Assembly: GCA_947646735.1 (NCBI GenBank)
Contig: CANTFK010000877.1
Span: forward strand, 1 to 64,000
Direction: 5' to 3'
Source of the DNA: Peronospora farinosa
Taxonomy: Eukaryota; Oomycota; Peronosporomycetes; Peronosporales; Peronosporaceae
DNA: 64,000 nt
Below, one piece after another: positions 9,401-64,000 of the stretch (positions are counted from its first letter, which is position 1; each line of letters opens with the position of its first letter). The translations under genes were made by a program, and so were the position numbers. The notes under the pieces were generated by a model, which saw only the letters and a program-made list of their open reading frames with translations, did no database searches and had not been told where the DNA came from.

Positions 9401-9728
9401 TCTTGTGATTTCATCGACGTTTGAAAAGTCCCTCTCTCGTGCCCATTTAAAGCTGATGACGTGGCAGTTGTCGTCATCTCACTTGATGATGTAACAACTG
9501 TCGTATGAATGTATCCATCTGATGTCTTGCCTTTGCTCAGTATTGCTTCCATCCAGACTTCATTAGGAGGAGGAAGTATCAAGCGCTGTCGCTTCTGTTC
9601 AATAGATAGGATAAATATATATATAAAGTTATAGAGACATGAGAATCATAAGAACAATAAAGAGAAGAAAGACATTTACTTTTACGTCGTACCTTATCCC
9701 TACGGTTTTGTATCGTTTCATGATACAT
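6439..9728 (-). CDS. Chromatin-associated protein: zf-4CXXC_R1-like zinc region, AT-hook, PHD finger, bromodomain
   Basis: Proposed exons are 9728-9693 (MYHETIQNRRDK) and 9594-6439, joined in phase across a 98-bp intron (GTACG...GAACAG), giving about 1063 aa. The N-terminal third has degenerate YQGR repeats. Around residues 300-410 is a Cys/His cluster (CHLCGVKEKQY, then CPHADENHSLCREH, CLVCAHGCPCTLCR) resembling the zf-4CXXC_R1 family. A Met/Gln/Ser-rich linker follows, then an AT-hook (KRGRGRPPKRDKRG). A PHD finger (CEVCQGAGDLVCCDKCPRSF, residues about 880-930) and a bromodomain (PMYTRVVKQPMDLSTIENKL, with the acetyl-lysine Asn in SNCKLFND) end the protein. Predicted to be nuclear and to read histone methyl and acetyl marks. 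The exact orthologue is not recognised. Exon 1 is inferred from splice signals. Confidence 0.85.
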
Positions 9729-19687: not shown

Positions 19688-20211
19688 TCCTCGAAAACCG
19701 GTACGTGCGGTACTAAGGAAATGACGAATGAGCTGGCTAGTAGTTTATTAACTATCATTGGTCATGTGTGTGCTGTTTAAAAGGATTAAAGTATCAGTAC
19801 CGTTCATACTATTGTAGTACCGGTGTATTGTACCCAAAAATGATCTATATTGACATAAAACCCGTATCTTGAATATATCATATATGACTATAGGTGGATG
19901 TCTTTAACTGTCGCGCGAGCTGCTCACGCACAAGTCGATTGTGCAATCTCCGCTCCAAGACCCCACATCAACAGACATTTAACAATTGCTCGAGTTGAAA
20001 CAATCTCTCTGCTCGGTTGCAGGCAGTGACTTGGTAGCCAGCATCAGCCCTAATACAACGTACTCAGGCTTTACTAACCCTTTTCGTGCCACGTCTCATC
20101 TCATACGCACGTAAGGTCGCTTCTCGTGGTAGTCACCTTGTTGTTGCCAGAATGCCAGTCATAATTGACGTGAAAAGGGCAAAAGAAGACGTTTTCATCG
20201 TACGCGTACAA
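19688..20211. other. Intergenic region up to element A
   Basis: It should contain the promoter of the hAT-derived gene. No ORF or terminal inverted repeat was recognised. The last bases, TACGCGTACAA, precede the LTR. Confidence 0.45.
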
Positions 20212-20814
20212 TGTAAAAGGGCATCTACTTACGCGTAAACATTAAGTAATAATTAATGTAAGGTCTAAAAGTATTCATGATTACTTTTGACCTGTCACTT
20301 GGGTGCGATACACAAACGTGATCCACCCTCGTGAATGTGATATCCATTTATGGATTCACATGAGAAGGGATGACGCTAGTTGAAGCTAGGCATCGCGACG
20401 TCCCAGAAGGACGTCACTAGCAAACTTAAATCTAAATTTAAGCTCACACGTCAGGATAAGCTTCTGAAGAGTCGCGTATCCGATCTATATACATAATTAG
20501 CCAATCAGTAGTTAAGTATATATTCAATTATAATTCATTAAATATAGCTCAGTCTTGAATTTCCTTAAAGCATAAGCACCGCGCACGAGAAGCTATAAAA
20601 GCTTTTGCGTGACGTCGATGACTTCTTGTTTTAGAAGTTCGTTGCGCTATCGCTTAAGCGAGAGGCAATTGGTGGTACGACTGCGTAAGCAGTCGACAAC
20701 CCCCCTTGCACGCGAAGGTAAGACGGTCTGACCGCTTCCTCGCTTGTGCTTGAAGGTGTGCCCGCGTAGTACGAGGCAACTTCTTTACGAAGCTCCCGTC
20801 TACACTTGGTAGCA
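20212..20814 (+). repeat. 5' LTR of element A
   Basis: Begins TGTAAAAGGG and ends TCTACA, about 603 bp, homologous to the minus-strand LTR at 278-885. It contains several short palindromes (ATCGCTTAAGCGAGAG, ACTGCGTAAGCAGT). The minus-strand ORF over 20,654-20,956 is a shadow that mirrors the shadow at 87-395. Confidence 0.8.
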
Positions 20815-20816
20815 CT

Positions 20817-20834
20817 AGTAGTCCTTCACGCGAC
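20817..20834 (+). promoter_or_regulatory. Primer-binding site of element A
   Basis: TGGTAGCACTAGTAGTCC follows the LTR end by two bases. Its first eight bases are complementary to the UGCUACCA 3' end found on eukaryotic initiator tRNA-Met. The same motif follows the LTRs of the left copy, B, C, D and H, so it is a genuine shared priming site. The exact tRNA is inferred. Confidence 0.65.
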
Positions 20835-20863
20835 TCGTCTCTCTGAGCGTGCGTGTGGTTGAG

Positions 20864-22573
20864 ATGGTCCTTGTTTTGGACTGGAATGACTTTCCTCACC
20901 TCTCCCAACACCATATGGAGTTGGCAGGGCATATGGCGCAGGGACTTGGTGAACAAGCCCTGATCAACTTCTTAAATGGTCCTTCTGAGCAACATATTGC
21001 TTAGTTAGAGCAATTCGAGGCGTTTGTTTTCGGACAGCGCAGAAATGCGTCCGAGTTAAACAGCCAAGCCACGGCTGAGTCCATCACTAAGACTCAGGAT
21101 GAGCTTTTGCGTGAACAAGCTCGGAATGAGGCGCTCAACAGAATGGTTAAGACGCTCTCTGCGCGGCCTGCTAAACCGAGGCCCATTCAGATGGAACCTT
21201 CGAAGTTTGATGGGAATGCCCCACATACGATTGTCCACTGACTTTTAGCCGTGGAGCAATGCGGTATGGTGCAGCTCATCGAAGACGACACCAGGATGGT
21301 GTCGTATGCCATGTCCAACTTGCGTGGCAAAGCGTTAGAGTGGGCATACTCTGCGCTGATGGCAAACGACGATGCGTTTCCATCATGAGTGATCTTTAAG
21401 TCAAAGATTCGTGCCATGTACCAGCCGCCTAACAACGAAGTGTTACTTCAGGCGCACTTCATTGGAGCACGACAGGCGAAACGCTCTCTGCAAGAATTTG
21501 TGCAGGAGATGCGTTCGCTGTCTGCGTCCATCAATGGGGTACCGATACCGGAACGTATCAAGGCGCCTACGTTCATGAACGGACTACGGCATGGCCCATC
21601 GCGTCAGGCCCTTTTTAGAAAGGTTCCAAAGACGATGGAGGGGGCAGTTGACATTGCCATGGTTGAGGAGCAATCCAACAACAGCGCCTCGGCGACAGCC
21701 TATTACAGGCCGTCTTCCGAGAAGTCTGATGCCACTCCTACGGAGTTAGGCAATTCAGACGTGATATGTTACAAGTGTGGTAAGAGAGGCCATATGATGG
21801 CTCGCTGCTATGCCAAACTTGCTGCTGGTGCTAAGGCAGCCAGCAAGAAGGCTCCCTACCCGAAGGGTTGGTGCGAAGAATCAGCGTGCACGACGCACGG
21901 GTTCAACACCTTTCCAAGATGGGTCGGGAAATGCGGGAGCGCAGTAGGGGCGGGATGCCCTACCGTCGCGGACTCTGAAGCTACCCCTAAGTTCAGAGTT
22001 ATTGAGCTAATGGGTAGCATAGTCCCTGAGGCACTGAAAGGTTGGGCCTCAACCCTTTTGGTCTATAGAGCTCGAGTACGAGGTTATGACCAAGTGATGA
22101 CCCTTCTCGTGGATTCGGGTGCATCACAAAACTTTGTGAAACTCGCGGATCTGAAAAAGAGTCCGGCGAATTATGAGTCGCTTTGCCAGGATGGCAGGCG
22201 AGAAGAGACGATCGTTTGTTTAGCGAACGGCGCGCTCGCAAAATCGGAGAGAGTTCAAGTTGAACTCGCTTTCAGCTTCAGTGACTTCTCTTGTAAAGAG
22301 AAGTTCACAGTGCTAGGTATGGAGAGTCCGTATGACCTCATCCTAGGCATGGCTTGGTTGGATAAACACCAACCATGGATAGACTGGCGTGTACGCACAG
22401 TCGCTAGCTCTACGCAATACACCGGAAAGGATGTGGTCCTGCGAGAGGCTTATGTGGCTTATGCTGTGTCCTATACAGTAGAGGGTGCGATAACGGTATG
22501 CCAATCTGCACCAGGAACTACCCAGCTCGAAAATAGTGGTGTAGTTGGAAGTTTCTGGCAGAAAGCCAAATGA
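20864..22573 (+). pseudogene. Element A gag-protease ORF with three in-frame stops
   Basis: One frame from the ATG at 20,864 to TGA at 22,571-22,573 (570 codons) holds a gag capsid region (LRGKALEWAYSA, QAKRSLQEFVQEMRSLS). A CCHC knuckle (CYKCGKRGHMMARC) and an aspartic protease (LLVDSGASQNFV, then YDLILGMAWL) follow. Stops at 21,002 (TAG, for Gln), 21,239 (TGA, for Trp) and 21,386 (TGA, for Trp) interrupt the capsid. All are single transitions from conserved codons. The downstream pol ATG overlaps the stop as ATGA (22,570-22,573). Confidence 0.85.
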
Positions 22574-28113: not shown

Positions 28114-28454
28114 TGTAATGGGCTAAATTACACACATAATTAACACAAATAAATAATTACATATGTAGACAGGTGCTAGGCCCGAATAGCGGGCATAGCG
28201 TGACAAATTATAATTGGTTTATTATTGGGGGCCTAAAGTCCCAATAAAAAGACCAATGATAAATCAACCTGAATTGTGTGGTTCCCGAAAGGCGGGAACA
28301 CTGTCGTATTTATTACGACTAAATCTTCGTAATTAGTACGAATTCAAACCAAAATAAAAATCAGAGTTAAATTTACTTAATACCTAATACTTAGGCTTGA
28401 GTATTCCTCAACCGCGCATGTAAGCTAGTGACGGTACGTTCTAGCCGCGTTATA
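28114..28454 (+). repeat. 5' LTR of element B
   Basis: TGTAATGGGCTAAATTACAC start; the end at ...GTTATA is followed by the PBS TGGTAGCACTTAGTAGTC at 28,457. It shares GGTTTATTATTGGG, CCAATGATAAAT and AATCAGAGTTAAATTTAC with the 35,405 LTR, and related blocks with the D LTRs. Confidence 0.8.
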
Positions 28455-28480
28455 CCTGGTAGCACTTAGTAGTCTTTCCT

Positions 28481-30204: not shown

Positions 30205-30545
30205 CGGTCGAATAGGGGTTCTCACGCGTCATTAACGCGGTTGAACAGAGGTTCCCGCACGAGAATGCAGTGGTTGAACCGGGGTTCACATCTGCACCTA
30301 TTGTGGTCGAGCAGGGGCTCCCACAAGGGCATATTGTGGTCGAGCAGGGGCTCCCACACGAGTACAACGTGGAAGGACAGGAGTCCTCACGCGAGAGCAT
30401 GATGGTCGAACCGGGGTTCCCATCATCACCCACTGTGGTCGAACCGAGGTTCCCACATGGGCATACTGTGGTTGAGCAGGGGCTCCCACACGGGCTTACG
30501 GCGGCCGAGTAGGAGCTCCCGCATCAAGTGTCGGCGGTCGAGTTT
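30205..30545 (+). repeat. Coding minisatellite in the protease-RT linker of element B
   Basis: Imperfect direct repeats of about 30-39 bp built on GTGGTCGAGCAGGGGCTCCC. In one frame they read [30 protein letters not shown] and so on, so the array lengthens a Val-Glu-Gln-Gly-Leu-Pro linker. About eight units are recognisable. Element D has no equivalent array. Confidence 0.8.
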
Positions 30546-33600: not shown

Positions 33601-34642
33601 AAGCGGTCGCCTACTGCCAATTACGCGCCGATTGAGTCGGATCTACATGGAGGAGCTTATACTCCACCGTCAAGTCATCACCCGGTTTGTACGCGACGCA
33701 CTACAATCTGCGGCAGACCAACAGAAAGAGAACGCTGACAAACGTGTCAGATAGAACATGAGCAAGTTTGAGAAAGGTGACCGTGTATTATTATCGACGG
33801 AAGGTTTAAGGGATTCTGCGGTCACTAATCTGGGCGCGAGTAAACTCGCGCCACGCTTCATCGTCCCATTCAAGGTTCTGGAGGAAATAGGCGACGCTTA
33901 TACACTCGACGTCCCCTCTTCATTGCGACTCCACCCGACATTATGTGTCGGGCGGCTGAAGGAATATCGTCCGGCTACGCTTCACGGTTTGGCTCCGACG
34001 CCGGCTTCAGGGGTTCGTAAGTCGAACGGCGTTCCCGTCGCGCTCGACGCGCCGATGACATGGGGCGGGGTCTCGATCCCGTCTGAACCTGACCAAGCAT
34101 CTGGCGCTCCAGAATCCTTATCTGCTCGAGCAGTTCACGGTTCGACTGCCGGGTCTCACTCGAAGTCTTCTCCGCCTGGGCAGCACGTTCACTGGCAGCC
34201 TCAGCCTCCAGCCGAGCATCGGCAGCTATATTCACGGCCTTATCAACATCGTCCTGAGCAACCAGGACGCCAGCTCTATCCCCGCGAGAGCCCTCCTCCG
34301 CTTGTTGATGCGGAGGGACAGGTGCGCTGGATTGTAGACCGCATTGTGGGTCACGAGGACCCTCCACAACCATTACTGCCATCAGCTCATGAGAAGCGCG
34401 CGGTTCCACCCGCGCGCAGGTACCGAGTACGCTGGCTTAAATTCCCTCCCGAGCAAGATACATGGAAACCACGTTCCTCACTCCTTCGTGACGTTTCAGA
34501 TGTGGTTCTGTCGTATGAAGCCACGAAGTCGGGCTATATCAATGCGGGCGAGCACGCGAACGCTCTCGTGACAATGAGAGCGGAAAGGAGATTCACGTCG
34601 TCGGGAACGAGAACGATTAAGCGAACGAGAACGATGACGTGA
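30697..34642 (+). pseudogene. Element B pol: RT, RNase H, integrase, chromodomain
   Basis: RT begins after FPGLSWKHF-like linker residues (EIGLVPGSKYCVTRQWPLPR) and has a frameshift near 31,490 just before NAPATFNR. The catalytic YFDDIFVHSRAE follows. A TAG at about 31,923 replaces a Trp. RNase H is at about 31,983-32,399 (VICDASDFAIGCALM, YTDHASLRTA). The integrase zinc domain (GHLGREKTFA, CETCQCVKPSPS) and core (SVSTDIFGLAPD; NRDPRFMSASW; ETDRQTERV) are split by frameshifts and a stop. The frame from 33,758 carries the post-core domain (FEKGDRVLLST, HPTLCVGRLKEY) and a chromodomain (RWIVDRIVGHED, YRVRWLKFPPEQDTWKP). Confidence 0.85.
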
Positions 34643-35149
34643 AAGAGAACGATGCCGTGAACGAGAACGTCGTAGTAAATATATATCATCACGATTGCGA
34701 GACAAGAACCTCGCAGCAGGACAAGCAGGCGAACATGCCGCTGCTCTGCGCTTATTATTCCACGGGGATTGGCTCTGCTGTCGCGATTGGTGTTGACAGC
34801 GAGGCGCACCTCGAATAACTGCGCTTCTCCGTTCGCTCATACTTCGCTCATACTTTGCAATCCAACTTCGTTCGCGATCACTGAGTGGACACACAGCGAT
34901 GTGTCGTCGCCATTCGTCATGAGTTGGGCGTGGAGTCGAGTCACAAGACTGGCATCCTTCATTGACATGAACGAAGCAGAGGCGGTCCTCATTCCAAGCA
35001 TCCTCACACACTCTTTCGCGTAGCGCGCCGATGAAGTGATCGGCGCGAAGCTCCTCTCGATTGGCGAGCCATAATTGAAAGCTGCTACCATCTTCGAGCA
35101 TCCGATTCCAATGTCGGATGAAAGCGCACCAGAAGCGTTGCAAGGCCTC
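33975..35149 (-). pseudogene. Element B antisense ORF: W/C/H domain, RS-rich region, coiled coil
   Basis: Opposite strand to pol. The frame 35,149-34,496 reads EALQRFWCAFIRHWNRM, FQLWLANREELRADHFIG, a Cys/His cluster (LCFVHVNEGCQSC...H.EW..H...C), WIAKYERSMSE, then an Arg/Ser-rich block (RSRSRHRSLSRHRSRS). A frameshift at about 34,450 leads to the frame 34,409-33,975 with a coiled coil (ARLEAEAASERAAQAEKTSS, QIRILERQM) and a basic tail. It aligns without gaps with the antisense ORF of element D over the N-terminal domain. No known family was recognised. Confidence 0.65.
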
Positions 35150-35404: not shown

Positions 35405-35746
35405 TGCAATGGACCACATTGCATATATAGCATTAACATTAATAAACAATTTTAATTTTAGGCAGGTGCTGTGTCCGAAGAACGGGCACAGAGTAGCAAT
35501 TTATTTTTGGTTTATTATTGGGGCCTTAAGACCCAATACGGACCAATGATAAATTAGCCTGAAAATGTGTAGTTACCGAAGGGCAGGAGCACGGTCGTAT
35601 TTATATCGACATATAAATATTCTTGGTTAGTACGAATCAAAACAAAATAAAAGTCAGAGTTAAATTTACGTAATACCTAAAACTTGGGCTTGAGTCTTCC
35701 CAAGCGCGCGTGTAAGCTTGTGACGGTACGTTATAGTCCCATTACA
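35405..35746 (+). repeat. 3' LTR of element B
   Basis: TGCAATGGACCACATTGCA start, ending GTCCCATTACA. It is preceded by a purine-rich tract, AAGGAGAAGGTGA. The 5' tip inverted repeat is kept through paired changes relative to the 5' LTR (TGTAAT/ATTACA becomes TGCAAT/ATTGCA). Confidence 0.8.
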
Positions 35747-36200
35747 CAGTCCACCTACCAGATACTGCTGTTTAATCAGGCATACATGCAATAATAGCCC
35801 AGTCTATATGAACGATGCATTAGATACGAGCTATTTCAATTCATGCGCGCCTGCATTGACGGCGAGGGCTTTATCAATGCGCATTTCGCAAACCCACTCA
35901 ACACAACTGTTTTTTGTTATCGTGACCCCACCTGCGCTCGAATAATATGCGTCTTGTTGAGCACTATCTTCTCAAAACATTCTATTATCGCACTTGTATT
36001 TTTTTAGTTACGTGAACAAGTATCATAAAATCGTTTTACAGATTCGGATTCTATACCAAAGCAACTGGTAGAAGTTTTGTATGTATAGCTATTTTCAAAA
36101 GATGAAAGCAGAAGCTATATACATGAAAGATTATTTTTGAAAAAAATGCTCTAGATCATTCTATTTCTTATGCTACTCGATATTTGTCCAACGAGCTCCA
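35747..36200. other. Unassigned AT-rich spacer between elements B and C
   Basis: No ORF, LTR pair or RNA recognised. Confidence 0.5.
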
Positions 36201-43156: not shown

Positions 43157-44976
43157 CTAGAGTAAAGCTCCGCAATTCAGATCCACTTCGTCCACCCACG
43201 AGGGTTCAGGGTGCCCCTTCCATTGCACGAGTACTTTTCGTTGTTGCCTTCCATACCAAGTCTTCTTGCCTGTAAGACTCTCTAAACTTTCTTCGACTTC
43301 ATACTCGCCCTCTTCCAATTCCCGCACCCAGCTGTCTTCTGGTAGCAGACATTCGTTGAAGTCAACTCGATCTGTTCCATCCACTTTCAGCTCGCTGTTC
43401 GGTCGATCGGGGAACTCTCTGACGGGCTTGAGCTTGGAGATGTGCACGATTGGGAATAGTCTATATTCTGTACCTCGTAACTCTAGACGTACTGCATGGT
43501 CTCCGACTAGTTCCCGGACTCGGAACGGTCCATGCCCTAGTTGGGCCAATTTTTTGGCATACCCCTCTTTCCCCGGTCTAAGTATAGCCACACCCGGGCC
43601 CCTGGCTGAATTTCGTGGCCGACTACCCCTTCATTTTGTGCTTGCACCCGAGCCTGACTAGCCGCCCGTAAATTCTCGTTGACTTTGTCTCTTGCTCGCT
43701 GATAGTGACTCTGAATCCGATATCTCCATTTCCGAGGTCCTGATTCTCGACGTCGGGTGTTCACCACCGGTAACATAGTCTCAAGAGTGGTCCTAGCATC
43801 CCATCCATGGACCAGATAGAACGGTGTCTCCTCCCGTACTCTGTCTTGAGCCGTGTTTAACTCGAGCGTTAAACGTTCCGCGTATTCATCCCAGTCTCGC
43901 TGTCCCACGTCGGCTACGTACATCTTGAGCGCTCTTGTTAGAGTCTGGACCATTCTCTCCGCAGTGCCGTTCGCTTGAGGTCGGTAGGCCATGGTCGCTC
44001 TCTGACGTTGACCCACCATGCGACTGAAGTCTTGGAAGAAGTCCGACATAAACCCCGGTTCCCGTTCGTGACGGATCGTCTCGCTGGCGCCAAAACGGCG
44101 GAAAACGCATTCTTCATATCCCTCAGCTACTGTCTAAGCTGTTCGTGACGCACTTGCCTTAGCCATCACATAACCTGTGAACAGGTCGACCCAGATCAGT
44201 AGTTTCGTATTTCCTTTATGCGACTTGGGGAGAGATAGTATGTGGTCCATCGCGATAATTTGGAAGGGGTACGTCGCTTCAACATTCCCCGAAGACTTCC
44301 CTTGTAAAGTGATCCTCCCTTTCCCAGCCTCACAATCCATGCACTGACCCACATATTTCTGGACACTCCGGAACATACCCCTCCAATGACAATATCGTCG
44401 GATCCGATGATAAGTACGCCCGATCCCCTGATGGCCGCCTTCCAAACTCGTATGATAATGATGGAGGACGTCGGCTTGGAGACTCTCAGGTATCACCAAT
44501 CTAGCAGTTATGTCTCGGTCGTCTCCCTTGATCCTCTGGCCGGGGCAGTACACCAGCAGTCCTTCTTCACTTATCTCGTAATCTTCCGACATTTTGCTGC
44601 AGGTTCTGGCCGCTTCCACTGACAAAACCTTCCAGTCTCCCTTCAAATATGCCTTCAACTCGCGTACCCAGCTCTCCTCTTCTTGTGCATCTCGGATCCT
44701 ATCCATCCGGAGATGTTGTACCACATCTTCTTGCATGACCTCTCCCAATGTTTTGACGGGGGACCGTGACCTCGTCACCGCGGATACAGTCACCGACGGA
44801 CCCCGGTCTCTAGGGGCCAACACCTCTGGCAGCCGATTGATTGTTTCTAGACCTACCACTCTCCTCTTGGTATCGACTCGACCCCTTTCTGCTGATGTAA
44901 AGCCGCACTGGCCAACTGGTCTGCGCTCTGATTCCAGTCTCGTTTCACATGTAAGACTGCATGGGTGGGCCACCAC
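43157..44976 (-). pseudogene. Element G integrase and C-terminal chromodomain remnant
   Basis: Minus-strand frame 44,976-44,134 has the integrase zinc domain (HHYHTSLEGGHQG, then CHWRGMF and CMDCEAGKG) and the core start IIAMDHILSLP. After a frame break the core continues (FGASETIRHEREPGFMS, then QANGTAERMVQTLTR) in frame 44,049-43,537. The usual second-Asp motif DRDP reads EREP. Frame 43,591-43,157 has GPFRVRELVGDHAVRLEL, IVHISKLKPVRE and a chromodomain-like end (VLVQWKGHPEPSWVDEVDL). Confidence 0.8.
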
Positions 44977-47562
44977 TGAGCTTGCTCAACGCCTTGGCCC
45001 GCAACGGGGATAAACCTGAAGCTTTGCATTCAATCTCTCCACGCATCTGTCGTATAACCAGATTGGAGTCTCCACAAATAATCAAACGCCGTCGCTCCAT
45101 TGGCTCCAACAGGTCAAAACCCAGTAACATGCTCTCATATTCAGCTTCATTCACCGTAGACTTGTCGAGATATTTCGATGCAGCTGTAACTAAAGTCCAT
45201 GCAGGGAGTCTCCACACAATAGCGCTGCAAGCACCTCCCCCTTGTTTCACCCGGGCCGACCCATCGAAACTCATCACATACAGTTCTTCATTTAGTTCCA
45301 CTGTGGGCGTCGGTAGGTCGGCCACTTGCCTGGATTGCTTCTTGGGAGTAATTGACGACAGAATGGATTCTACATTCTTTCGAGGCGTAATACTGGCAGC
45401 TAACGCCCCCAGCTTCTGGTCCTCGCCTTTCTTGCATTTCACAATCTCCAAAGTCCACTGTGACAACAGAGCGGCCCAGTTTCCTAAGCGTCCTTGCAAC
45501 CCCGAAGACTTCACTAGCCAGGCTAGTGTAGAATGCCTCGTCAGAACCTTGAGAGGTCGGGTGACCAACATCGTGAAGCAAGTTTCCAATATTCGTAACA
45601 ACGCCAACACTTCCTTTTCTACTGTACTATAGTTCACCTCGTTTGACTTGAGGGTTCGGCTCGTAAACATTACCGGCATATACAGGCCGTCGTAATTCTG
45701 CACCAACGACGCCGAGATAGCCCAATCACTTGCGTAGAAAATAATAAATTTCTCTCTAGCCGGGTCGAAATGTCGTAGGATGGGCGCCGTAGCAATCTTG
45801 TTCTTGAGCATGGCAAACGCTACTTGTACCTTCGACCCAATTTTCTTCGTCGTCTTCCTTGGCCGACACTTTGTGTCAAACTTCAATTTGCACCTCCAAG
45901 CGTAAAAATTTACCTCTCGCAGCTCATAAAGGATCGACGCGTATATGGCATAATCTTCGATGTACCTGCTGTAGTAATTTAGGCTTCCTAGAAAGGACTG
46001 CATAGCCTTCAGCGTTGTCGGTAGAGGTAGGTCGACCAAAGACTGAAGATGTTTTGGGTGGGCCTCTAGTCCCCCTTTGGAAACTAGATGTCCAAGGTAC
46101 TCGACTTTCCGACATCCCCACGTACTCTTGACGGCACTGACCGACAAATTCCAATAATCACACACGTCTAGCAGCCGCTCCACTTTCTGGCATAATACGT
46201 CCCACGATTCGGCCGGAACAAGTATATCGTCAATGTATGATCGTCGACCCAATACAGAGAGGCCCGAATTTGCATCGGGTTCCCCTGTTGCGAACAAATC
46301 CTCTGTTTCCTCTGTGGCCGCCCCTGGCGAAATCCGTAAGAATCCATATAACGCATTATCCAACAGCCTTTGATATATTTGAGGCGCATTCTTAAGCCCA
46401 AAAGGCATCCGAAGCCATTCAAATAATCCCAGTGGAGTAACGAACGCCGAGATTAGTCTCACCCTTTCGGTCATACTGACGACCCAAAACCACCCGCCAT
46501 GTCAAGAGAACAGTACCACAAAGCTCCGTCCAAGCCCTCCAGTAAATCGTTAATCAACGGCATCGGGTATACCATGAGCTGGGTGAGATCATTCACCAAC
46601 CGATAGTCGATACACACTCGAATATCGGCTCCATTCTTCTTCACGATAATTACAATTGAGCTGGCCCATGGCGAGGTGGAAGGCTGAATGATCTTTGCTG
46701 ATAACAGTCCCTTGACCAGGTCGGCTAACTTATCTCTGAATTGAGGGGCTACCTTCCGTTCCGGTACGACCGCCCACCCTGGTCTTATGTCCTCGGCCCA
46801 AAGTTCTCCACTCTCGAAAGAACACACCAGGTCATCTGCCTGTAACAAGTCTACCTGTTTGGCTTCATTCTCATCGGTAGTGATCACTGCAGGTAGGTCT
46901 TCCTTAGCTACACTCCGCTCCTGGGTAGACCCCTCCTGCCAATTCACCTTCTCTTCGCATGGTTGTTCTTCTCTGTCGGGTACCGGTTGGTGCGTTAAAT
47001 TCATCATTGGGGCTGGGGCCGCTGGTCGCTGTAAGATGTGTGACGGAGTCTTATACTCTGGTCTCTCCACTAGTGGCCCCTCTTCCTCTTCCGTTGGGTC
47101 GACCTGATGGTCGACTTGGTCGGTGGTAGATTCATAAGCCAGATTTAGCCATTCCGCATATCTTCGAGAGCCTACGGAGACAAACCCTGGCGTTCTCGGA
47201 ACTTGCTCCCTAGTCAACCACATAACTACCTTGGTATCTTCATGCAATGTTAAGGGGCGAGGGCTGACATTGGTTATCTTCAAAATCGGTCGACGCCCTA
47301 TCCCTTGTATCATGGTGGTCACCCATCGTTCGCCTCTCGTGACCCACAATTTCCACTGTTCTGAGGTCGACCTTTTGAGAGGCACTTCCGTACATCCTCC
47401 AACGGATATCTGTACATACCGACGCAATTTCACATCCGATACTCGAGTATTGTACAGTGTCCTTCGTCCAGTCAACTGTACCCTGACCTCATCGGGGAGG
47501 CAAAGAGTTCCGTCGGCCAAGTATAACCGGATACCGGCTGGGACCATGAAGTCCATCCCCAA
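44945..47562 (-). pseudogene. Element G RT, degenerate RNase H and archaeal-type RNase H
   Basis: Frame 47,562-46,471 carries the pre-RT linker and RT start (SSIVIIVKKNGADIRVCIDY). A frameshift near 46,490 leads to frame 46,474-44,945 with FEWLRMPFGLKNAP and catalytic SYIDDILVP. The first RNase H is recognisable (SDWAISASLVQNYDG, STVEKEVLALL) but its catalytic Asp positions read Tyr (FYASDWA) and Arg (LTRHSTLAWL). A second RNase H follows with intact residues: SFDGSARVKQGGGACSAIVW, NEAEYESMLLG and ICGDSNLVIRQM. This matches the archaeal-type RNase HI acquired by some Ty3/gypsy lineages. Confidence 0.85.
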
Positions 47563-51629: not shown

Positions 51630-54376
51630 TTGACGAAGGTTGCTCCCAACATACAGTCACTGTGTGTTGCCGCTCCCAGTGATGAGGTATCCCTCATCAC
51701 ATTGAAGATCGAAGTGACAAAGAACATGTCACTTCGCGCCCTAGTTGATTGTGGGGCTTCGAACAACTTTGTTCGACGCCAATCGCTAGATGATCGTAGG
51801 CTCAAATATGTTGAGCGCGAGACCCCTCCAACGAGGATGACGGTGCGCCTTGAAACGGGCGCATCCGTAACAGTAAAGAAACGTGTAGTGGGAATTCACT
51901 ACACGCTTGAAGGCAAAAAGTAGGATGATGATTTCATCGTACTTGATCTGGATGACAAATTTGATGTCATCCTAGGATTACCATGCAGAAGGTACGAGCC
52001 ATGGGTCAGCTGGCAGCATCGAACCGTGAAGATGCCTGCCGCTTGTTCATCAGATGGCCATCTGATGAACGTCTTGGAGCGTTCACAAGCGTGTGAATGT
52101 ACTACAAGTGAGTGTGATGGCCTCACTTGTGGTTCGGTCGTTAGTACGACTGCACAAGAACTCAGCGTGACAGACAGTCACGCTGTGGAGCAAGCTGCCG
52201 GCGGCTGTGCACAAGCACGGGCAGCGCCGAAGGTCCACCACTCGAATAAGTCGAGTGGACCGGGACATGAATGCTCGCCTAGAGGGCAGCATTCAACGAA
52301 GAGTAAACCGGTTGCCCAGAAGCGGCAACATGGTAGTCCTAGATCAACTGGAGAGTTGATCGCAGAGAATCTCGCTGTGGTTGCGCCACCACAGCTAGAG
52401 GAAGTCGATGGAACAGGTTCCATCGAGCCTGCGGGAATAAGTCCCCAGGAAATAATCACTGAGGGAATAAGTCTTCAGTGCCCTGAGGGAATAAGTCCCC
52501 AGGAAGTAACCGAGACGTTGAACGTCTTGGTTAATGACGGATCAAGCGTAGGCGCTTATACGCTTGATCTGATCGCGCCTCCGAAGTTAACTTCGGAGAT
52601 AACTCAGTTGCCTACGCTAGAACCTAAAAGGTTCTTGCGTGATCTGCGTAGTGGCAAAGTCAAGCAGATCTGTGTGCTCGTCGCAGAGGACGAGTACATG
52701 ACTGACATTCGGTCAGCAACAGTTTTTGCCGAGAACGAACGGGTTCTCAGCAGCTCATCAATGGACGAGAGTGTCCTTGATGAGAAGACTCGGATTGAGC
52801 GCTACACATCGCAATCCTGGGAGCCACTGAAGTCAAATCCTTTGTACAAGGATTTGGTCGAATTCAAGGATGTATTCCCTGAATCCGTTCCGTGCGAGTT
52901 GCCTAAGGATAAAGGTACTCGACACGAGATCGACCTTGTTCCTGGCACAAAATATTGTGTCATGAAGCAGTGGCCACTGCCTCGGGAACAGGTCGAGGCG
53001 ATCGACAAGTTCTTTGCCGATCGCCTAGCAGCGGGCCATGTGAGGGAGTCAACTTTACCTCACAGCTCTCCGACCTTCTATGTGCGCAAGGCCACAGGAG
53101 GGTGGCGGATAGTGCACGCGTTCAATAAGTTGAACGCTGCAACGATACCGGCGCAAACGCCGATACCGAGAAAGGACGCAATCATAGATGGTATGTCTAA
53201 AAGTACCTTCTTTTTGTCCATGGATCTGATGGATGGCTTCTATCAGATCCTAATGCGTGAACGGGACATCCCGTACACAGCAGTGAGCACTCCCAGTGGT
53301 ATGCTCTGGGAATGGTTGGTGATGCCGCAAGGGCTTAGTAATGCACCAGCCACATTCAATAGATGTGTTTCACATCAATTGAGACCGGTGCGCGAATTCG
53401 CACCGAGTTACTTCGATGATGTGTTCTCCCTAGTCGGGCTATGGACGGGAAAACAGACGTGGAAGTCCATAGACTCCACGTCCGTAAGGTTCTTACACTT
53501 ATGCGAGAGCATAAGCTGTACGCCAACCTCAAAAAGTGTATATTCAGAGCTAGCGAAATACCGCTTCTTGGGTGCATCGTCTAAAAGAACGGCGTACCCC
53601 CTGATCCAGAAAAGATCGAGGCGATAACCGACTGGCCAGTGCCAGACGATGTCAAGGGACTTCGGAAGTTTCTTGGGCTAGCGGCGTACTTGCAAAAGTA
53701 CTCACGCAACTACGCCGAAATGACAGTACATCTTTCTTGTTTTCCTAAGAAAAATGTAAAGTGGAATTGGAACGCTGATTGTCAGCGTTCCTTTGAACGT
53801 ATCAAGCAAAGCTTGATGCAATCGCCGGTATTGGCGATTGTCGATCAAAACAGACCATTTCATATCGTCGGTGACGCCAGCGATTTTGCAATCGGATGTG
53901 CACTGATGAAATATGATACAGACGGCGCAGGGCGTGTCGTCTGCTATCAATCGCGTCAGCTGCAACTGGCCGAGCGCAATTATTCGGTGCATGACAAGGA
54001 ACTTCTTGCCATGAAATATGCACTGGCTAAGTTTCGCGTCTATCTCTTAGGAGATATACCGTGCATAGTGTATACAGACCATGCGTCACTACGCACGGCT
54101 GTAAACAGCACACACCTCTCGCAAAGAATGGCGATATGGTTGTCGTTCTTCGAGGAGTACAACTTCTCCGTGAAGCATAAACCGGGACGACTTAACGTCG
54201 TTTACGATGTTTTTTTACGTCGGCCTGACCTAGAGCCGACTGTGCAATTCTACAGTGATGTGAACACCACTGTCTCTACGCTGAGTACCAGCGTCTTTTC
54301 GTCGAGTAAACACGACGACATTAGAATGGCATGCGCACAAGATAGTGATCTTGTACGCCTGATGGAGTACCTTAAG
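51630..54376 (+). pseudogene. Element H protease, RT and RNase H (5' part of pol)
   Basis: The protease motif is LVDCGASNNFV, with DCG in place of DSG, then a TAG at about 51,922, and KFDVILGLPC in the same frame. The linker at about 52,430-52,510 has three GAGGGAATAAGTCCCCAGGA-type repeats. RT runs HEIDLVPGTKYCVMKQWPLP to SYFDDVF. A frameshift right after the active site is restored by 53,639 (KGLRKFLGLAAYLQKYSRNY). RNase H has VGDASDFAIGCALM and VYTDHASLRTA. The frame is cut at 54,376 by the element D insertion. Confidence 0.85.
54372..54376 (+). repeat. Target-site duplication of element D, left copy (TTAAG)
   Basis: TTAAG directly before the 5' LTR of D. The same five bases directly follow its 3' LTR at 61,086-61,090. 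Five bases is the usual duplication length for Ty3/gypsy integrases. Confidence 0.9.
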
Positions 54377-54697
54377 TGTAATGGGGCAACCTATTACATA
54401 AGTAGTTATAGTAATAATACATAATTACATAAGTAGGTATAGGGCAGTAGCCGATTAGCGGATACTGCGCGTCATTTTATTATTGGTTTATTAAATTGGG
54501 GTGCCAGACCCAATAATTAGCCAATAATAAATTGACTTCCATAATTGAGTGGTTCCCATGAGCTAGGGAACATATTCGCACATACTGCGAATTAAAACTA
54601 AACAAAATAAAAACAGAGTTATATTTACGAATTAATTAAGAGCGCTTCCTCAACGCCCTTTTAGTGTAAGACGGTAACGGGTCCTTAGCCCGTTACG
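54377..54697 (+). repeat. 5' LTR of element D
   Basis: Starts TGTAATGGGGCAACCTATTACA and ends GGTAACGGGTCCTTAGCCCGTTACG. The PBS TGGTAGCACTTCGTAGTCC starts at 54,700. Confidence 0.9.
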
Positions 54698-58700: not shown

Positions 58701-60317
58701 GCGCTACTTGCTCCCTCAGCTTCAGAGCACCATGTCTCAAAGTTTGGTGTGAAAGTTATTACCGATGAAATTGCGCCAAAAAGATTGATGATTGATTACG
58801 ATGCGGATAAGGTTGCTGCCGATGCACCTAATACTGTTAATTTTGTTGCCAACGGCATATCGACACTGACGCGATGCTTTTCATCGCGTCTCCCGTTGCT
58901 AATATTGCCCCAAAAGTGAATACGTCGCCTGTAAGTTCGGCTGCAGTAACCGACTCTGCTATATCGACAAGGAATCACGCGTTTTGTGCGTGATGCATTA
59001 CAAGAGGCATTCGACAAGCAAAAGGAGAATGCAGACAGAAGAGGTCGAAAGAATATGTTGAAATTTTGAAAAGGTGAAAGATTATTGCTATCAACAAGTG
59101 AATTACCGAACACCTCAGTGACGAATTTGGGCGCTAATAAGTTAGCGCCAATATATATTGGCCCATTTCGTGTTGTTAATGTGCATGGTGACGCTTACAC
59201 GCTAGACATATCTACGTCTATGCGTTTGCACCCGACGTTCTACGTCGGGCGCCTCAAGGCTTACCTGCCGGCGGATCTCCCTTCGAATCTTCCCCGCTCT
59301 TCTGTGCCGGCTCGAAATCCGACATCCCTTGACGACGACGTTGACGACGACTGGGACCAAGTCCTGCCCGAACGCGTGCAGACTCAATCTGCTGGGGCCC
59401 TCCGAACGCAGTCGTCTCAAGTTGACGTAGGCGCTCAACCAGTACCAGCTGCTCACGTCGAGTACGCTCATCAGCCTCAGTCGCAGCATCCGCACGATCT
59501 TGAGCTCTCTCAGCCATCTCGCGAGCATCAAGTAGGGCATTCTTCGATTCCTCAGCTTCAGCGCGGAGTAGGCGCAGCTCATCATTCGACTATACAGGCG
59601 CCCGATTACGAGAATCGGCGCTCATCGCCAGAGGCCTTCCGTCGCGATGCTCCTCCTCCATTAGTCGATGCATCGGGTGCGCGACGCTGGATTGTCGACC
59701 GGATTGTCGATCACGAGGATCACAAGTCCCAGGCGCCGAGTAATAACTCGGCGCCCATGAAGAAGCATGTCGAGAAACATTACAGGGTTCACTGGTTGGG
59801 ATATTCCCCGGCGGACGATACGTGGGAGCCATCGAGTACGCTGACCCAAGATGTACCAGACGTGGTCGAGGACTACGAGTCCCGTAAAAAGACGGTGATC
59901 GTGACTGACGCTGCCGATTCCATCCCCGATCTCGCAAGCCGTAATGCTCGCGAGCAACGAAACCACGGAGACCTCCCGAGCGACTCCGAGACCGAGACCT
60001 ATTACGAGGCTCGGGAGCATACGGATGATACGGTTGACGACCTCGGCTACGCGAATGCCCTCGGCGATCGTAAGGACGCGCTTTCACTCGCCGTAGCTCG
60101 GACACCTGGATCTCCGAAAGGTTTCTCTCATAACGGGCAATCCATGGACGAATATGATCGAACATGCCTCGCGCACACACCAAGTCGTCCCATTCCTGCC
60201 GGACCGGTCGCGATCTGCCCATTTTGCTTGTTGGACATTCCTCACGAACGTGGACGTAACAAAGATGATACTCATCATAAGTCATACGACAGATGCGCCG
60301 GCGCAGGTCGCCAATAG
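55761..60317 (+). pseudogene. Element D pol: RT, RNase H, integrase, chromodomain (protease missing)
   Basis: No DSGA/ILG.PWL protease is visible between gag and the RT linker. RT (HEIDLVPGSKYCVTRQWPLP, SYFDDIFVHSRAE) shifts frame near 56,960. RNase H (VVCDARNFAIECALM, IYTDHASLRTA) has a TAG at about 57,573 for Gln. The integrase zinc domain (GHLGREKTFA) is followed by a TAA at about 58,122, then CETCQRVKPAPS. The core reads SVSMNFIVGLPP, with Asn where the catalytic Asp is expected, SDRDPRFTSAFW and ETDGQTERVNRVLED. Frame 59,085-60,317 holds HPTFYVGRLKAYLP and a chromodomain (RWIVDRIVDHED, YRVHWLGYSPADDTWEP). Confidence 0.88.
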
Positions 60318-60570
60318 CGTGTCGATCACATGTTCCCTCGCGACCGTCTAACCAGGACGTGAAGGATGTTCATTCACGTCGGCTCGCGTTCCAGCGCCTG
60401 ATGAAGGCACACCAAGACCTCTGCAACGCATCTTCGGTATATGCGTTGTTCGTCTCCTTGACTCTCACTGTACGGTATCGCGTGAAAAGGTCCTTCTTGA
60501 CCTCCAGTGGCTCGGGTTCGACATCACCTTCAAGACCATACAAGCGCCACGGTTTCAAGTCCCCATCCAT
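59254..60570 (-). pseudogene. Element D antisense ORF: W/C/H domain, RS-rich region, coiled coil
   Basis: One continuous minus-strand frame of 439 codons from the ATG at 60,570, broken only by TGA (60,370-60,372) and TAG (59,590-59,592). Order: PWRLYGLEGDVEPEP; ALQRSWCAFIRRWN; a Cys/His block (C..D.H..GDLRRRIC, LCYVHVREEC); WIARYERNLSE; Arg/Ser-rich RNRSRSRSRSGG; Pro/Tyr/Ser-rich; then a coiled coil (LRLLRAEAEESKNALLDARE, EADERTRREQLVLVERLRQL) and a basic tail. It aligns without gaps to element B's antisense ORF over the first domain, with mostly synonymous differences. It overlaps the chromodomain of pol on the other strand. Function unknown. Confidence 0.7.
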
Positions 60571-60772
60571 GACCTGCGGCGCCTGCTCTATACGGATTGT
60601 CGCTTGGTGTTCCCAGTTCTGGCTGTCAGAGACATTGTTTCGTGGACGCCTAGTGTTTATGCTGCTCAGTTAAGTCTAACTGAGCAGGTTCGGAGTTACG
60701 CCGTTGGTCGAGAAGAAACTTTCTGCGATTCGCGCTTACGTTGAGGTAAGCGCAACTTAATGAAGGGGGTGA

Positions 60773-61085
60773 TGTAATGGGTCTACCTATTACATAAGTA
60801 GTTATAGGAATAATACATAATTACATAAGTAGGCATAGGGAAGTAGCCGATTAGCGGATACTGCGCGTCACTTCATTATTGGTTTATTAAATTAGGGTGC
60901 CAGACCCAATAATTAGCCAATAATAAATTGACTTCCATAATTGAGTGGTTCCCATGAGCTAGGGAACATATTCGCACATACTTCGAATTAAAACTGAAAC
61001 AAAAATAAAACAGAGTTATATTTACGAGTTAATTAAGAGCGCTTCCTTAACGTGTAAGACGGTAACGGGTCCTTCTCCCGTTACA
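60773..61085 (+). repeat. 3' LTR of element D
   Basis: TGTAATGGGTCTACCTATTACA start and CCCGTTACA end, preceded by the purine tract TGAAGGGGGTGA. It is followed by the second TTAAG. Confidence 0.92.
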
Positions 61086-61090
61086 TTAAG
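61086..61090 (+). repeat. Target-site duplication of element D, right copy (TTAAG)
   Basis: Matches 54,372-54,376. Removing D plus one copy restores the H reading ...EYLK-DPSKQAKKRLK. Confidence 0.9.
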
Positions 61091-63115
61091 GACCCATCCA
61101 AGCAAGCTAAGAAGCGCTTGAAGGCATGTATCCATCTTCTCTAAATCAATACACCCAGCGGAACGGCTTAATGTATTACACAGCCGTCAACAACGACACG
61201 CCTCGTGTCAATGTACTGCCACAACATGATCTCAGGTTACGGATCATGTTTGAATGTCACGATGCACCAATAAGTGGGCATCGCGGCCGTGAGAAGACTT
61301 ACCTCACGGCCAGTCGCGACTTTTACTGGCCACGCCAGTATAAATTTGTGCGCAAGTACGTGCGTGCTTAAGTTGTGTGTCAACAAGTGTAGCCTAGTCC
61401 TTCACTCCGTGCACCATTGCAGCCTCTACCTGTTTCAGGAAAGTGCTGGAAGTTCGTATCAATGGACTTCGTCTTTGGATTTCCCAAAGACGCTCACGGG
61501 AATAATGTTATTCTCGTGTTTGTGGACAGGTTCAGCAAGATGGTACATCTTGTTGCTGTACCTGAGTCGATCACAGCAGAAGGCTGTGCTCGAGTGTTTA
61601 TCGATACAATCTTCGATTGCACGGGTTACCCCGTGAACTTGTGTCCGATAGGGACCCCCGGTTCACAACTGAGTTTTGGCGTTCCGTGTTCCAAACACTT
61701 GGAACACGGCTCACAATGTCTACTTCTAAAAATCCAGATAGTGATGGTCAGACTGAAGGCGCCAATCGCGTCCTCGAAGATATATTTTGAGGTTACGTTC
61801 ACGTTTACGAGTTGGAGTGAGTTTTTGTCGATGGTCGAATTCGCCATTAACAACTCAGTGCATGCGTCCATGACGCATACACCGTTCTACGTGAATGGCC
61901 TTCGCCATCCACGTGTCCCCACCTTAGTAGAGGGTGACTCTAATTCAAGGGGGGGGAGGAACTCGCTCGAGCGAGAACCAATCTGGCTCTTGCTCATCAC
62001 GCGACGACGTTATGGTCGACGCGAAAGTAACCGAAGTCGTACCATTCGACTTCGGTGAAAAGGAAGAAATTAAGAGCGATGACGCTCTTACTGATAACGA
62101 TGCTGAAGATGTCAGCATCGTTCGAGGTATCACAAGTGAGAACAGTATTGTTCTCGCTGAATTAGTAACCGATATCTCCGCAGTGCACTTACAATGCACT
62201 GCAGCCAAAAGAAACGAGCCAGCTGAGGATTTCCTGCTGACTCGTGAAGCGGTAGTCCGTTTCGTGCAAGATTCCATCGCGGAAGCGGTGGATAAGCAAA
62301 AACGAAACGCAGACAATAATGGGAGGGCAAATGCTCATACATTTATTGAAGGTGATTAATTTTTACTGTCAACAGTAAACCTACCTATACATGTAATGAC
62401 TAAGGTGGGCAGCAATAAATTGTTGCCCAAGTACATCGGCCCGTTTCGTGTATTGCGCCACCTAGGCAACGCATACATTACCGAGTTGCCACACAGGATG
62501 CATACGCATCCTACGTTTTACGTGGGACGTCTTCGTCCGTACGTTCAGTAAGCGGCTTCTTCGAACGACGAAGATAGCCGACACGCTCAAGAATCCCCTT
62601 CAGATTCTTGTTGTCACGAACCAGATTCGATAACTGGTCGTGTAGAGATGAAACCGTCCCATGATATTTGACGATATCCTAACGATCTGTCGCTAGTTCG
62701 CTACTTAGAGAATGAAGCCGCCGTTCATTCTCCAGCAGTGCGACAGCATTATCTGCCCGAGACTTCTCATGGTCAAACCCAAGCTGTCGCACAATGTCCT
62801 CTAAGCGGCGATGCTTATCCCGTTCATGATCAATATCACAACGTAGCTCACGAGTTACACGGGCAAACCCGTCTAACTCAGCAGCCAAGTCCGATGAAAG
62901 AATCGGACAGGGTTTTCCTCCATCACTGCATCCGCTGGTAGAGGGAAGCACTTCCTTGTGAAGAGTCTGCTGAATCACCGTGAAGGGACGTCGGAAGATT
63001 TATCTCGTTTAATGGCGTGGCTATCCACCTTTGGAGGATAGCTGGGAACCTCGGGCCCAAGTGATGGCCGACGTTCCCGGCCTTGTCGAACAGTACGACA
63101 AGGGACATCCGATGA
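61086..63115 (+). pseudogene. Element H, right part of pol: integrase and chromodomain
   Basis: Continues H after the nested element. The integrase zinc domain reads CHDAPISGHRGREKTYL and ...KYVRA, with the frame lost before its CxxC. The core starts at FVSMDFVFGFPKDAHGNNVI and VFVDRFSKMVHL. The second-Asp region is scrambled by frameshifts (61,640-61,760), then WSEFLSMVEFAINNSVHAS. The post-core part reads YIGPFRVLRHLGNAYITEL and HPTFYVGRLRPY near 62,430-62,550. The chromodomain (about 62,970-63,100: WRGYPPLEDSWEPRAQVM) has a TAA at a Gln position (63,011). Confidence 0.82.
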
Positions 63116-64000
63116 TGGAGAAAGAAATCGAAGCGTCCAGTGCGCTCGTTAATGGATTACAAAGTAGCAATCCCTTCACGCATCAGAAGAGATTCGAGCT
63201 CTCCACCAGGGCTCATTAAGGAGGTACGCCTCCTTAGGCGCTCTTGACGAGGTGCTCAGGCACCCCGGGTATGGGTCGCCCCAAGAGAGGCATAACAGGC
63301 CTGCCTCTCTAGATAAACGGTGCAAACGATATGATGCATTGAACGTAATTCGTTTCTTAAAAGATATTGCGGCTAGCAAAAAGTCTTTGAAAGCAAGCTT
63401 CTTCCCAACGTTTAAAACGTTGGTGATAAACGCGTTCCAAGATTGGAGGAACGCGTCAGCCTCACGCTTCTTGTGTAGGCCATACCATCAATTTTCAAGA
63501 AACACATCGATGTAATAGTCGTTCTCAGTGCAAAAGTTCTTCGCACTGGCGTCAAGGCCGTGAAGCTTTTACCCATTAAACAACGGTATGGGGAACCGTT
63601 CGTTGGTCTTTCCAGACCAACGATCAAGCAGATGCTTTGGTAGCATCCATGGCTTGCGATCATGAGCAAGGCGCAATACGTTGCGGTCTAAAGCCTCCTG
63701 CGTGGTGTCAACAGAAGTACCGACACCGCGAGCATTAGTGTCAACAGAAGTACCGACACTATGAGCATTGATGTCAGTAGAAGCACTGACATCACCCTTA
63801 CGACCCCCACCCGAGTCACTATCCTTCGACTCGTTTGGCGAGTCGTCTGATTCATCAGACGACCCGAACATTTCACGGTACATTGATTCACTCAATGTAC
63901 CACGATCCCTCTTCGTAGCATTAGACGACGAGGTATCACCCCGGGGAGAGCCTGGGAGTGGAATAGGTGACTTTGAGCCGGATGCGTCATCCGACTCACC
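62679..64000 (-). pseudogene. Element H antisense ORF, open to the window edge
   Basis: On the minus strand the frame is already open at 64,000 (GESDDASGSKSPIPLPGSPR). It continues through MFGSSDESDDSPNESKDSDS and a small ING/THSVGTS-type repeat region, then RKPWMLPKHLLDRW and NERFPIPLFNG. A TAA (63,569) and a TGA lie in the same frame, which continues with AFLQSWNAFITNVLN, FKDFLLAAIS and LLCLSWGDPYPGC to 63,176. A shifted frame, 62,978-62,679, ends in a coiled coil (RLEDIVRQLGFDHEKSRADN). The domain order equals that of the D antisense ORF. Its start must lie to the right of the window. Confidence 0.6.

Follow-up and report, generated by a model that had tools for sequence, protein, structure and literature searches.

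An antisense gene in the 3' part of chromodomain Ty3/gypsy elements of Peronospora farinosa, with homologues in other oomycetes

Antisense accessory genes are already known from plant and fungal retrotransposons of the Ty3/gypsy or, more broadly, the long terminal repeat (LTR) type. Here, we analyze a gene of this kind in a 64,000-nucleotide stretch of DNA from the oomycete Peronospora farinosa (GenBank assembly GCA_947646735.1, contig CANTFK010000877.1, positions 1 to 64,000), henceforth termed the window. Two Ty3/gypsy elements in the window, B and D, carry a gene read opposite to pol, which had been proposed in an earlier note made from the sequence alone. Beginning beside the 3' LTR, the gene extends over the region downstream of pol and over the chromodomain; its end faces the linker that connects the integrase SH3-like domain to the chromodomain. 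That it is a real protein gene under selection we regard as practically certain. It departs from the known antisense genes in its host, its protein, and its passage through the end of pol with the constrained strand changing at the chromodomain.

Anatomy of the antisense gene in elements B and D

On the plus strand, Pfam scans of the elements gave matches to Gag, reverse transcriptase (RT) and RNase H, and in D also to integrase, while the 3' end of pol carries SH3-like and chromodomain matches (Table 1). The chromodomain at the integrase C-terminus is clear in D, scores just under the family cut-off in B, and is assigned by resemblance only in a third element, E. The antisense gene was located with a hidden Markov model (HMM), A3, of 29 rows, among them the B protein P0004 itself. 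LTR pair identities of 92.2% (D) and 79.3% (B) indicate that both window copies are old, and their antisense frames have decayed into three pieces in D and two clear pieces in B. For D, the earlier note had placed the gene at 59254..60570. A gene is indeed present there, but its start lies further upstream, at about 60660 in the window, and position 60570 is a conserved internal methionine; at the start column, the window copy of D no longer has an ATG. Upstream of the RT region of B, at ~30210-30520, we also observed by eye imperfect short repeats resembling GGTCGAGCAGGGGCTCCCACA.

Better preserved copies exist elsewhere in the P. farinosa genome, which contains at least 157 and at least 155 matches to the B and D antisense proteins, respectively. 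Among the loci examined, mostly the best-scoring matches rather than a random sample, 24 of the 53 that are B-like and 9 of the 31 that are D-like retain an open antisense frame of at least 450 amino acids (aa), and several have 450-502 intact codons. An ATG occupies the start column in 49 of 53 B rows and 26 of 30 D rows, and the internal methionine is preserved in 52 of 53 and 27 of 30. In the B-type copy L019, which encodes an antisense protein of 475 aa, 12 nt separate the start codon from the edge of the LTR (placed by eye), with the purine tract adjoining, so that a transcript using this codon would have to begin in or beyond the LTR. The D-type copy L032 has an antisense frame of 471 codons that starts between pol and the 3' LTR and overlaps the sense pol frame by ~1.06 kb; on the opposite strand, an open pol frame of 740 codons enters from the edge of the locus and stops within the antisense gene.

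Table 1. Positions in the window of the antisense genes and associated features of elements B, D and E
Feature	Position	Strand	Evidence and remarks
Element D, 5' LTR	54377..54696	+	blastn against 60773-61084, 92.2% over 321 columns
Element D, 3' LTR	60773..61084	+	blastn; presumed site of the antisense promoter
Element D, antisense gene, piece 1: start region and beginning of N-domain	60373..60669	-	A3 HMM, E=4e-35
Element D, antisense gene, piece 2: rest of N-domain, RS-rich stretch, chromodomain-opposite segment	59593..60369	-	A3 HMM, E=7e-62; P0002
Element D, antisense gene, piece 3: long helix, opposite the integrase-chromodomain linker	59257..59589	-	A3 HMM, E=1.5e-13
Element D, chromodomain of sense pol, within the antisense gene	59688..59885	+	Pfam PF00385, E=1e-11, P0001 residues 207-272
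Element D, integrase C-terminal SH3-like domain, sense	59127..59264	+	Pfam PF24626, E=3e-9, P0001 residues 20-65
Element D, 3' end of sense pol including the tail past the chromodomain	59070..60317	+	
Element B, 5' LTR	28114..28455	+	79.3% to 35405-35747
Element B, 3' LTR	35405..35747	+	paired with 28114-28455
Element B, antisense gene, N-domain and RS-rich stretch	34499..35149	-	A3 HMM, E=1.4e-66
Element B, antisense gene, chromodomain-opposite segment and long helix	33978..34436	-	A3 HMM, E=6e-46
Element B, chromodomain, sense	34331..34516	+	Pfam PF00385, E=2.7e-5, score 24.4 just under the cut-off of 25.1
Element E, antisense gene, five pieces, to the window end	62514..64000	-	A4 HMM, E from 2e-49 to 2.5e-9
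Element E, the five pieces	64000-63572, 63487-63179, 63148-62978, 62999-62682, 62678-62514	-	A4 HMM

Purifying selection on the antisense frame

The proposal of an antisense protein had rested on two blocks of codons compared between D and B (60264-60247 with 34981-34964, and 60414-60391 with 35131-35108). On re-reading, both are exactly as noted, with five of the six codons of the first block altered at the third base only, and the two antisense proteins are homologous (P0002 from D against P0004 from B in BLASTP: 41% over 86 aa, one gap, E=2e-16). When the N-domain regions of one B and one D copy were compared in all 36 frame pairs, the antisense pair scored 358 and the runner-up 169. The additional argument that the observed changes would mostly alter the pol-sense protein applies to the first block of D only: the B pol frame ends before the compared region (P0003, end at 34642) and D pol stops at 60317, hence the second block has no pol-sense protein to alter in either element. 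We also considered that the B/D alignment might be out of register, with the zinc-finger-like tail of D pol in the sense direction as the conserved part. This candidate was ruled out, as shared variants show no constraint on the D sense tail (see below), the pol frame of B ends sooner, and no other frame pair scores as high as the antisense one.

Over 158 aligned codons, B and D differ 66, 62 and 104 times at codon positions 1, 2 and 3 (proportion of nonsynonymous differences pN 0.39, of synonymous differences pS 0.82), which is too saturated for a ratio to be taken. Between B and copy L081, the ratio of nonsynonymous to synonymous divergence (dN/dS) is 0.17 in the N-domain at a dS of 0.95, and 0.33 in the C region. 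Ratios were weaker between D and copy L085 (0.58 in the N-domain part, 0.67 in the C region) and in the C region between B and D (0.68).

For variation within each family, 53 B-type and 30 D-type rows were each aligned to one real copy; three B rows (L066, L075, L013) were dropped before counting, leaving 50 B and 30 D, and neither L081 nor L085 was part of these alignments. Variants found in one copy were classed as private and those in three or more copies as shared. The spectrum of private changes supplied the expected ratio of nonsynonymous (N) to synonymous (S) changes, against which w is expressed. Private variants record the decay of copies once inserted, shared variants what active elements transmitted. 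No region class departs from neutral N/S at p<0.05 in private variants on either strand. In the antisense frame outside the chromodomain, with B and D pooled, private variants number 636N/231S (w 0.99) and shared variants 95N/73S (w 0.47, p=1.7e-6; shared versus private, Fisher p=2.7e-5); at cut-offs of 2, 4 and 5 copies, w is 0.54, 0.47 and 0.48. The N-domain is constrained as well (shared, pooled, 22N/32S, w 0.24, p=3e-7; w 0.22 on a rerun minus further divergent or duplicate copies, with 47 B and 27 D); there, w is 2.03 and 1.84 for the two remaining antisense frames.

At the chromodomain, the constraint switches strand. Pooled shared variants there are 17N/5S in the antisense frame (w 1.21) and 9N/13S in the sense frame (w 0.24, p=9e-4), i.e., only the sense frame is constrained. 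In the linker, the antisense frame is constrained once more (25N/19S, w 0.49, p=0.026; sense w 1.1), and over the same sites of the D tail and linker, shared variants in the 30 copies give an antisense w of 0.32 and a sense w of 1.32. The integrase, used as a control, shows sense w of 0.15 (B) and 0.56 (D), with antisense values of 1.91 and 1.51. An antisense ratio near 1, set beforehand in the earlier note as speaking against the gene, is thus absent overall and present in two places, opposite the chromodomain and in the short stretch of B after it. Purifying selection on the antisense protein, as originally claimed, is supported by the tests of shared and private variants, the low dN/dS between B and L081, the open frames and the database homologues described below.

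Several observations weigh against an antisense gene of this kind. The stretch of B just past the chromodomain tracks the sense frame (w 0.41, p=0.03; antisense 0.88), and the B linker by itself is not significant (antisense w 0.66, p=0.29). One sense frame that shares third positions with the antisense frame gives w 0.31 in the N-domain. Copies entered the set by the score of their antisense protein, a choice that could favour those with little antisense change; near-neutral private variants in the same copies indicate, however, that it is not a strong bias. In addition, the oomycete initiator (INR) and flanking promoter region (FPR) motifs were not found in the 3' LTR.

These data bear on the possibility that codon use on the sense strand or base composition produces the antisense frame as a by-product, with the similarity of B and D due to inherited DNA or sense constraint. 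Biased sense genes commonly have long open frames on the other strand, part of the present frame does lie opposite pol, and the low w of one N-domain sense frame fits this explanation. Yet the N-domain of B is mostly outside pol, and all three sense frames of the N-domain carry 2-6 stops in copies L019, L032 and L012. Synonymous sites between B and D are saturated while pN is just 0.39, constraint flips between the strands, and D has a relaxed sense frame exactly where its antisense frame is conserved. After synonymous recoding of the 352 overlapping sense codons of D, the antisense frame stayed open in only 2 of 5000 trials, with a mean of 6.1 stops. We consider a by-product hardly credible.

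A functional antisense RNA, acting as a source of double-stranded or small interfering RNA or by interference with genomic RNA, would make coding secondary. The parts of the literature available to us do report small RNAs on both strands of the Gypsy Pi-1a element of Phytophthora infestans (PMC3522703) and discuss antisense non-coding roles for other elements (PMC7264820). The constraint in P. farinosa is, however, codon-phased and frame-specific, which an RNA-level role leaves unexplained, and the retention of the start codon in most B and D rows and the protein homologues in other species also speak against it. We judge this alternative improbable.

Homologues in other oomycetes and a probable relative in element E

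Two protein searches returned 16 and 20 database homologues at E<=0.001, of which 30 are distinct, and all those named are hypothetical, unnamed or uncharacterized proteins. They stem from Phytophthora capsici, P. infestans, P. ramorum, P. rubi, P. fragariae, P. idaei, P. cactorum and P. megakarya, from Peronospora destructor, P. farinosa and P. effusa, and from Hyaloperonospora arabidopsidis. Using protein letters only, we assessed for 18 of the 30 homologues whether the opposite strand could encode a chromodomain core, with our own two proteins as positive controls. Such a core is possible in 16 of the 18, in the corresponding position and with an unchanged relative frame, with scores above all 100 shuffles each; no compatible core was found in the remaining two (P0029 and P0021), and in P0014 from Phytophthora infestans, outside the 18, the chromodomain-opposite segment is missing in the alignment. 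Simulations for the 16, in which residues identical to ours were fixed and the rest redrawn, gave lower scores in 32 of 32 cases (p <0.0005 to 0.026). The result suggests that the 16 compatible homologues also sit opposite a chromodomain, and the database homologues thereby look like element genes. A host gene captured by the elements and retained for a host function would explain why annotated oomycete proteomes include the homologues as ordinary genes; this chromodomain compatibility and the presence of at least 150 matches per family in the P. farinosa genome make it very improbable.

In a tree of 27 N-domains, an 18-row B-type clade (support 98/97) groups our copy with Phytophthora rows. 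Five D-like rows, namely our copy, one each from Peronospora farinosa, Phytophthora fragariae and Phytophthora rubi, and one unnamed, fall outside this clade and are unresolved as a clade of their own; the branch between the D-type N-domain and the P. farinosa protein has a length of zero. Because the tree mixes our copies with other oomycete rows in both groups, the split between B and D is probably older than these genera.

Element D is inserted in element E (51924-54376 and 61085-64000), with TTAAG flanking D on both sides by eye, and E also has an antisense gene (Table 1). In the window copy, this frame is mostly open, with one stop opposite the linker of E. The genome contains at least 150 E-type matches with open frames of up to 657 aa; in copy L086, a 615-aa antisense frame lies opposite a sense frame that, judged by eye, resembles an SH3-like domain, linker and chromodomain. 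A database search with the E type found 133 proteins (120 listed), mainly from Peronospora matthiolae, and one E-type protein is 93% identical to a Peronospora effusa protein over 67% of its length. Compared copies of B, D and E have an identical frame relative to the chromodomain, and in each of them the marker motifs are 42 nt apart. When full-length profiles of the B/D and E types were compared, the chromodomain-opposite segment matched best (hhalign probability 33, E 5e-4). The E-type N-domain was not matched by HMM to the B/D type; hhalign aligned the two colinearly but weakly (E=0.0098), and the N-domain pair P0028/P0053, the best of 476 pairs, exceeds 5000 shuffles. From these comparisons, a distant relationship of the E gene to the B/D gene is probable but not proven. 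Two P. matthiolae proteins, P0047 and P0051, represent clusters of 1335 and 524 member sequences that are E-type antisense proteins.

Protein architecture and proposed role

Three parts make up the B/D-type protein: a helical N-domain that is modelled with confidence and includes a putative metal site, a disordered middle rich in arginine and serine (RS-rich), and one long helix. In the AlphaFold2 model of the homologue P0008, on which the helix of D piece 3 was assigned, residues 41-180 form blocks of 83-96 pLDDT and the helix at residues 350-409 has blocks of 56, 80, 93, 96, 97 and 91. The RS-rich stretch and the C-terminal helix anticipated from the sequence thus both hold, the latter as modelled on a homologue. 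Arginine and serine together reach a fraction of 0.62 per 60 residues. The putative metal site reads C-x9-C-x7-C-x2-C in 22 of 34 B/D-type proteins, several of the 12 misses being fragments, and H-x9-C-x6-C-x2-C in 90 of 121 E-type proteins in its strict form, i.e., the first putative ligand is cysteine in the B/D type and histidine in the E type.

On the whole, we lean towards an accessory antisense gene of chromodomain Ty3/gypsy elements of the Peronosporaceae, read opposite to gag-pol and with a regulator as its product. Within this explanation, the open frame, the purifying selection in that frame, the oomycete homologues, the domain order and the model of the helical N-domain have direct support. 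How the product would regulate is more tentative, and we put the following scheme forward as possible rather than likely. An antisense promoter within the 3' LTR would drive transcription. The protein would probably self-associate through its long C-terminal helix, enter the nucleus, and bind RNA or DNA via the arginine/serine-rich region and the putative metal site. It could then regulate the RNA of its own element, or the silencing of that element, in trans, by analogy with HBZ/APH or Rev of retroviruses but without belonging to those families. A structural or nucleocapsid-like particle protein, such as an RNA chaperone or second Gag-like part, is unlikely as the alternative to a regulator: the arginine-rich disordered stretch, the putative cysteine metal site and the long self-association helix would suit RNA packaging, and Gag is present separately, but antisense expression would decouple the amount of the protein from that of Gag, and the Pfam matches listed for these proteins include no Gag or capsid family.

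A broader and rather doubtful version of the regulator proposal holds that the antisense gene is ancient, occurs throughout the Peronosporaceae in three or more lineages of chromodomain Ty3/gypsy elements, and encodes a trans-acting nuclear regulator. As the antisense gene overlaps pol, the two strands would share the 3' end by turns, with the chromodomain under sense selection and the flanking stretches on both sides mainly under antisense selection, and the 'linker' between integrase and chromodomain would really be a dimerisation helix of the antisense protein.

Similar layouts are known from other hosts. In plant Ty3/gypsy elements, the available parts of two papers (PMC7264820, PMC11963269) describe aORF-3R genes, e.g., gene23 of Grande and those of RIRE2, Retand (with TRP28) and PvRetro13, which like the present gene lie antisense to gag-pol near the 3' LTR. 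These papers report the plant genes in most copies and in distant species. The oomycete gene likewise occurs in distant species, with its 30 B/D-type homologues in Phytophthora, Peronospora and Hyaloperonospora. It differs in its host and in its ~1 kb overlap with pol, with the chromodomain inside; Retand belongs to a non-chromovirus lineage (PMC11963269, as far as available). In addition, TRP28 (PF04195) is not among the 10 Pfam families listed for 11 A1 members (E up to 10), nor among the 25 of 34 Pfam families shown for 17 A4 members. The brtn gene of Boty from Botrytis cinerea (Zhao et al. 2011 as cited in PMC8365987; Boty also appears in PMC7264820, both in the parts available) is likewise an additional antisense gene, carried by an LTR element of a plant pathogen that is filamentous, a likeness by description only. 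HBZ and APH-2 of human T-cell leukaemia viruses resemble the gene in layout, as antisense genes at the 3' end, with no sequence compared. HBZ is a bZIP protein; the oomycete protein instead has a helical N-domain and an RS region, and neither the 10 Pfam families listed for A1 nor the 25 of 34 given for A4 include a bZIP family. According to the same partly available papers, HBZ and APH-2 are nuclear (PMC11963269) and their antisense promoter lies within the 3' LTR (PMC7264820).

Chronos and other oomycete LTR elements have captured chromodomains (PMC5348765) and are in this respect like the elements described here. The second, archaeal/plant-type RNase H of Chronos had no match in the B and D pieces scanned, which cover part of pol. 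The word 'antisense' is absent from the main text of that paper, the part considered here, and a literature search covering few subscription journals and no preprints found no description of an antisense gene in oomycete retroelements among the titles and abstract openings listed. Element C of the window (44945-46501, minus strand) has an RVT_3 (RNase H-like) match (E=6e-5) behind an RT_RNaseH match and may be a Chronos-type element; neither the A3 nor the A4 HMM matched an antisense gene in it. Elsewhere in the window, a hAT-type transposase gene with a BED finger and dimerisation region (17282-19744, minus strand) lies between inverted repeats ~20 kb apart (68-846 and 20249-21014), and a 1068-aa open frame with a PHD finger and bromodomain (6439-9645, minus strand) is apparently a host chromatin gene.

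In overlapping genes such as this one, selection on the antisense protein must be separated from selection on the gene it overlaps. Many copies together with an internal neutral control, the private mutations, allowed the two strands to be scored separately along one overlap. The gene accounts for sets of uncharacterized oomycete proteins, which should be annotated as element genes, and the E-type clusters of P. matthiolae are element genes that inflate the annotated proteome. The oomycete elements provide a testable case of an antisense accessory protein in retroelements that is neither plant nor retroviral.
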